In this document: piece after piece, positions 11,564 to 11,762 of the stretch
How positions within the stretch are numbered: the stretch's first letter is position 1
How the letters are laid out: each line of letters starts with the position of its first letter
Source: a virus
IMG/VR virus record: IMGVR_UViG_3300020165_000059
Coordinates: 1-37,576 of that record
Length of the DNA stretch: 37,576 bases
Direction: 5' to 3' (one strand)
Notes under the pieces: generated by a model
Database searches by the model: none
What the model saw: the letters and a program-made list of their open reading frames with translations, nothing else
Told to the model about the DNA's origin: nothing
Position numbers and translations under genes: made by a program

Positions 11564-11668
11564 TTTTACTCCTTATAATCATTAGGTAAAACTCATACAT
11601 TGTTCACTCTGTTTAAACTTACTTTGCAATTAAAATTAAGGCTTGATTAACCAACAAGGAACTTAATT
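11564..11668. promoter_or_regulatory. Divergent leader between DUF3310 operon and pqqA-like gene
   Basis: This intergenic stretch must drive the leftward DUF3310 operon and the rightward pqqA-like gene. It contains GTTTAAAC at 11611-11618 and, rightward, a TAAAAT (11631-11636) that could serve as a -10 box. No good -35 accompanies it. Leftward, TTGCAA lies 17 bases before TGAACA. Neither is convincing, so activator dependence or read-through is possible. Confidence 0.3.
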
Positions 11669-11740
11669 ATGTGGACAAAACCATCAGCTACTGAAATGAG
11701 ATTTGGCTTTGAAGTTACAATGTATGTAATGAACAAGTAA
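11669..11740 (+). CDS. pqqA: PqqA-like pyrroloquinoline quinone precursor peptide
   Basis: 23 codons, with AAGGAA eight bases before the ATG. The peptide begins MWTKP and contains RFGFEVTMY at residues 11-19. Glu15 and Tyr19 of E-V-T-M-Y are the residues that PqqE cross-links and later enzymes turn into PQQ. Length and the Trp/Lys-Pro start match bacterial PqqA (22-24 residues). No pqqB-F genes lie in the window, so host enzymes would be needed. It is the only plus-strand gene within a leftward region, flanked by an intergenic GTTTAAAC and a terminator. A chance frame is unlikely given the full motif. Confidence 0.85.
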   Translation: [23 protein letters not shown]

Positions 11741-11762
11741 AAAAAGGGGGCGGTCAGCCCCC
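11739..11762 (-). terminator. Intrinsic terminator of the replication operon
   Basis: On the minus strand GGGGGC-TGACC-GCCCCC is followed by seven T, immediately after the SSB-like gene. It is a textbook rho-independent terminator. On the plus strand the same hairpin closes the pqqA-like gene (its TAA overlaps) but lacks a T run, so it may only protect that 3' end. A nearby CCCCC at 11766-11770 could pair alternatively with the same G run. Confidence 0.85.

Follow-up and report, generated by a model that had tools for sequence, protein, structure and literature searches.

A solitary phage pqqA gene as a candidate supplement to PQQ synthesis in Methylophilaceae

PqqA is the peptide substrate from which PQQ is made. 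PqqE joins Glu15 to Tyr19 of PqqA, and the peptide is a stoichiometric substrate, one molecule being consumed per PQQ. A comparable case of a virus supplying a single component is that of the psbA-type auxiliary metabolic genes of cyanophages, through which the phage provides one short-lived or limiting part of the host energy system. However, the psbA product is a protein subunit, whereas phage PqqA is a peptide consumed to make a cofactor. Viral PqqA is already known as a kind. It was reported in 2020, with the same rationale, for one Lake Baikal virus population, VP_266, a predicted methylotroph virus in which the proposed role is the same as that considered here (PMC7678222), and this answers the doubt left by a sequence-only reading of the present DNA about earlier reports of phage PqqA. 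VP_266 also encodes a methanol dehydrogenase, whereas none was found in the window (the whole stretch of DNA analysed here, a 37,576-base virus record). In its accessible text, the VP_266 report (PMC7678222) covers one virus population and contains no promoter or selection analysis. The genes pqqA, pqqD and pqqE were also listed among reservoir-sediment virus genes in 2026 (PMC13188868); in the accessible text of that study, the virus-labelled pqq genes are read as phosphate-solubilisation genes, with no gene-level analysis. The main text of the papers describing Venkman, MEP301, MEP401/402 and Melnitz does not mention pqqA. Within the literature searched, the breadth of the distribution, the evidence of selection, the occurrence of the substrate gene alone in isolates and the promoter element of host type described below appear to be new, and the absence of pqqA from the isolate papers seems to be so as well.

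Over 1.7 kb around pqqA, the window shares 93.7% identity with Methylophilales phage Venkman, whose host is strain H5P1, and part of the remaining window matches Venkman at about 92%. The window belongs to a relative of Venkman, from which we infer its own host. The sequence-only reading had described a plus-strand gene of 23 codons carrying Glu15 and Tyr19 and preceded by its own RBS. The ORF is exactly so (Table 1), both residues stand at the right positions, with the E-x3-Y spacing that cross-linking requires, and AAGGA is found at the proper distance from the ATG. The PqqA profile search that this reading had suggested matched the 23-aa peptide at about twice the cut-off in both Pfam (PF08042; 43.3 bits, cut-off 21.1, E 3e-11) and NCBIfam (PqqA equivalog TIGR02107; 40 bits, cut-off 20), and no other family in either database matched. 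Searching the whole window with PF08042 retrieved this ORF as the single match (E 1.2e-11). Copies from other methylophages match the family too. PHROGs contained no PqqA match, and no PDB chain matched the peptide. Its length and its own RBS agree with what is expected of the PqqA family (about 22-30 aa), and an RBS-like 4-mer was detected at -18 to -5 in 84 of 84 independent pqqA loci from phages, where shuffled sequences gave 7.5. An ORF of only 23 codons could resemble PqqA by chance, but given the E value against Pfam PqqA, the identical peptide encoded by Venkman and the conservation of frame and synteny in dozens of relatives, we rejected this explanation, the probability of which is negligible. 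At the level of sequence, the ORF is confirmed as a true PqqA gene of Methylophilaceae type carried by the phage.

Table 1. Features at and around pqqA in the window
Feature	Position	Strand	Basis and remarks
DUF3310 gene, divergent neighbour upstream of pqqA	11267..11563	-	PF11753, 67 bits
Degenerate palindrome copy CTCCTTATAATCATTAG	11569..11585	.	15/17 match to CTMATGAWWWTCATKAG; only site with <=2 mismatches in the window, 0.21 expected
Probable -10 box TAAAAT	11631..11636	+	Sequence; 62 nt from the start of CTCCTTATAATCATTAG, host peak 61; missed by the strict sigma-70 scan
RBS AAGGA	11656..11660	+	Sequence; 8 nt before ATG; good RBS
pqqA coding sequence	11669..11740	+	23 codons and stop (72 bases); ORF list, profile matches, conservation in Venkman and relatives
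Intrinsic terminator of the leftward operon (gene 11774-12076)	11746..11762	-	GGGGGC-GCCCCC followed by a T run; abuts the pqqA stop
Leftward gene, possibly single-stranded DNA-binding protein	11774..12076	-	Name taken solely from its place beside the exonuclease in ctXG6705
YqaJ-like recombinase/exonuclease, synteny anchor	12076..12693	-	PF09588, 87.5 bits

The genes on either side of pqqA are encoded on the opposite strand. No Pfam match was found for the product of the gene immediately downstream, and further neighbours in the window include a Sak annealing protein and a DnaB-like helicase. The opposite-strand terminator noticed in the initial reading is real, its stem running from 11762 to 11746 on the minus strand. 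This hairpin could act on both strands, and a hairpin is found 3' of pqqA in many relatives. With its own RBS and a hairpin end, lying antisense between two leftward transcription units, pqqA has the appearance of a self-contained single-gene cassette, which probably has its own promoter. Profile searches of the window found no PqqB, PqqE or PQQ alcohol dehydrogenase, while the PqqC search was uninformative, the control giving no match either.

Searching a phage collection with tblastn, we detected PqqA in Venkman, P19250A, MEP301, MEP401, MEP402 and four Melnitz genomes, that is, in all of the cultured methylophages (nine genomes) that we found there. The uncultured podovirus ctXG6705 also encodes PqqA. 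The families given in the records differ, Melnitz being assigned to Kyanoviridae and MEP401/402 to Zobellviridae. It had been predicted that automated gene callers would skip so short a gene, and in the nine cultured genomes pqqA is indeed mostly unannotated or covered by an ORF on the wrong strand; five of them have no annotated feature at pqqA. An annotated hypothetical ORF overlaps pqqA on the opposite strand in ctXG6705 and in the one Melnitz genome inspected, and these ORFs look like gene-calling errors. Two matches labelled Acinetobacter phage MD-2021a (CAKLQF020000010.1 and CAKLQH020000055.1) were rejected as probable host DNA because pqqBCDE follow; one of the two records also has a polyphosphate kinase, and both look like bacterial chromosome contamination.

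A degenerate DNA pattern for GFEVTMY retrieved at least 120 IMG/VR stretches, mostly unannotated, in each of which a short PqqA-like frame is complete and has a start codon. Together with the isolates and the window, these amount to at least 128 loci in 86 neighbourhoods, with 117 distinct coding sequences and 55 peptides. Part of the invariance of Glu and Tyr among the relatives is imposed by the search patterns. Viral hallmark genes were checked in part of the IMG/VR contigs, and those with atypical peptides (e.g. L004, L018 and L028) may come from viruses of other hosts or be host DNA. PqqE was above the cut-off in none of 50 pqqA-bearing viral records tested. One 72 kb virus record with pqqA has in addition a gene for a PQQ-dependent alcohol dehydrogenase (608 bits), as do the methylotroph viruses of Lake Baikal.

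The fixed codons of the GFEVTMY pattern bias conservation in the set found with it, and selection was therefore re-measured in relatives fetched by the nearby exonuclease alone, without reference to pqqA. Among 70 such loci reaching at least 900 nt beyond the exonuclease, 62 carry pqqA, always on the opposite strand and about 370-630 nt past the exonuclease. All 23 loci with exonuclease identity of at least 90% have the gene. It was not detectable in eight of the 70 relatives, so pqqA is not essential to this phage group. The initial reading had named a missing match to the PqqA model and a frame not conserved in related phages among the grounds for refuting it, and neither was observed. Across 24 distinct coding sequences of the exonuclease-defined set, pS is 0.50, pN 0.057 and pN/pS 0.113. 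Phage pqqA, a metabolic gene of host type carried by a virus, is maintained by purifying selection, and on both counts it has the traits of an auxiliary metabolic gene. Uptake of pqqA as a passenger bringing the phage no benefit would be easy from hosts that carry 1-12 copies. Nevertheless, the gene is retained in a conserved place and under purifying selection over a wide divergence (exonuclease identity down to 56%), and it occurs in unrelated phage families, which makes a mere passenger quite improbable.

Alternatively, the DNA or RNA might matter rather than the peptide, the locus acting as a regulatory or antisense RNA or as a short homology site for attachment to, or recombination with, host pqqA. 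The gene is antisense to the leftward operon and lies beside recombination genes, and the closest host pqqA in the sample shows 93% DNA identity. However, variation is free at synonymous sites and restricted in the amino acids, the RBS is present throughout the phage loci and only two phage copies are DNA-identical to a sampled host copy. Folding of the pqqA transcript was unremarkable, with no excess structure (z -0.79), and searches of the window for Rfam families and tRNAs gave no match. We consider such a nucleic-acid function very improbable; to judge from the substitution pattern, what is conserved is the product and not the DNA.

Methylophilaceae are known to carry multiple pqqA genes and usually a single pqqBCDE set (PMC4109929). 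In agreement with this, PqqA was detected in 22 of 22 Methylophilaceae genomes searched, in 1-12 copies and mostly three in OM43-type genomes; as these genomes were reached through the pqqA pattern, copy number is informative and presence is not. One PqqE was above the cut-off in each of six Methylophilaceae genomes tested. The window peptide has the same length, Glu15, Tyr19 and 15-residue core as Methylophilaceae PqqA, and it differs at one or two positions from the host peptides most often found. The two peptides, of 23 aa each, that are most frequent in the phages are the two most frequent in the hosts as well, and a sampled host PqqA is matched exactly by 49 of 128 phage peptides (from the at least 128 loci). 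Unlike Methylophilaceae pqqA, the gene of the window is phage-borne and solitary, with no adjoining pqqBCDE.

Considering these features together, we think it quite likely that the phage supplies extra PqqA to host PqqBCDE and so sustains PQQ-dependent methanol dehydrogenase. In the infected cell, the peptide would be made from the phage gene, its Glu15 and Tyr19 would be cross-linked by host PqqD and PqqE, and the host would complete PQQ from it. The extra peptide would raise or sustain the PQQ supply and keep methanol dehydrogenase running, and with it energy and C1 supply, from which the phage would presumably benefit. Since PqqA is consumed one to one and hosts multiply pqqA and not pqqE, extra peptide should raise or sustain PQQ. 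A substrate-only role fits hosts that have one PqqE and usually several pqqA and whose peptides are so often matched exactly by those of phages. These viruses would thus probably prop up host methanol metabolism during infection. In an engineered methylotroph, over-expression of pqq genes gave only limited PQQ gains (PMC9851590), suggesting that PqqA may not be limiting. A short peptide in excess could also saturate PqqD/PqqE, and the phage product might then act as a decoy or modulator, tying up PqqD/PqqE or the PqqA peptidase so that PQQ synthesis in the host is slowed or diverted. In a decoy, loss of the reactive residues would be expected, whereas the cross-linked residues, core and tail are kept and the 49 peptides mentioned above are letter-identical to host PqqA; this role appears quite improbable, and supply of substrate to the host enzymes remains the preferred reading.

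A 17-bp palindrome, CTMATGAWWWTCATKAG, is found in host pqqA promoters, mostly starting 110-140 nt before the ATG. In seven whole host genomes, we detected 22 sites with at most one mismatch to CTMATGAWWWTCATKAG and none with the reversed pattern; by coordinate comparison, 15 of the 22 precede pqqA and three precede pqqB, the identity of which was confirmed, and every one of the 11 perfect sites stands before one of these two genes. In Methylotenera mobilis 13, a catalase-peroxidase gene has a one-mismatch copy 224 nt upstream (L306 position 1501), which may be due to chance. A similar element is present in many phages: sites with at most two mismatches occur within 220 nt before 14 of 84 phage pqqA genes and in no random windows from the same contigs, and sites with at most three mismatches precede 29 of 84, compared with 0.9% in random windows. 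The palindrome was first a candidate for a phage-specific signal, an idea rejected when scanning further than 95 nt upstream showed host copies. The distance from the start of the site to a -10-like hexamer is mostly 61 nt in hosts and mostly 38-42 nt in phages, a spacing that would suit a transcription activator. No description of the element was found in the literature searched, which does not prove that none exists. CTMATGAWWWTCATKAG is a candidate PQQ operator across Methylophilaceae.

In the window, the left half of the degenerate copy CTCCTTATAATCATTAG overlaps the RBS of the divergent DUF3310 gene. Because half of the copy is accounted for in this way, it is weak evidence, and the promoter link is tentative for the window. 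A sigma-70 consensus scan found no promoter upstream of pqqA and no excess over shuffles. The intergenic palindrome GTTTAAAC, which the sequence-only reading had placed beside pqqA, is present at 11611-11618. It is not specific to the gene, as the window contains 33 copies against 1.3 expected (e.g. at 16147, 17044, 19335, 19559 and 19754), both genic and intergenic, several of them sitting exactly between an RBS and an ATG. There are 32 copies in 30 kb of Venkman and none in the P19250A, MEP301, MEP402 and Melnitz stretches. As a phage-wide repeat, GTTTAAAC was rejected as a pqqA signal.

A broader reading is that substrate-only cofactor boosting is near-universal and overlooked in Methylophilaceae phages and that, in addition, many phage pqqA genes fall under the host PQQ regulon through CTMATGAWWWTCATKAG, the host regulator switching the viral gene on. 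We regard the chances for and against this combined proposal as even. Annotation pipelines miss pqqA or put it on the wrong strand, as the nine cultured phage genomes illustrate. With phage pqqA, one could readily test if PQQ in nature is limited by PqqA dosage, and the palindrome shared by host and phage promoters provides a handle on the regulation of PQQ synthesis in these bacteria. In coastal seas and lakes, OM43 and Methylopumilus are abundant methanol users, and infection would directly touch methanol turnover if PqqA supply were general among their phages.
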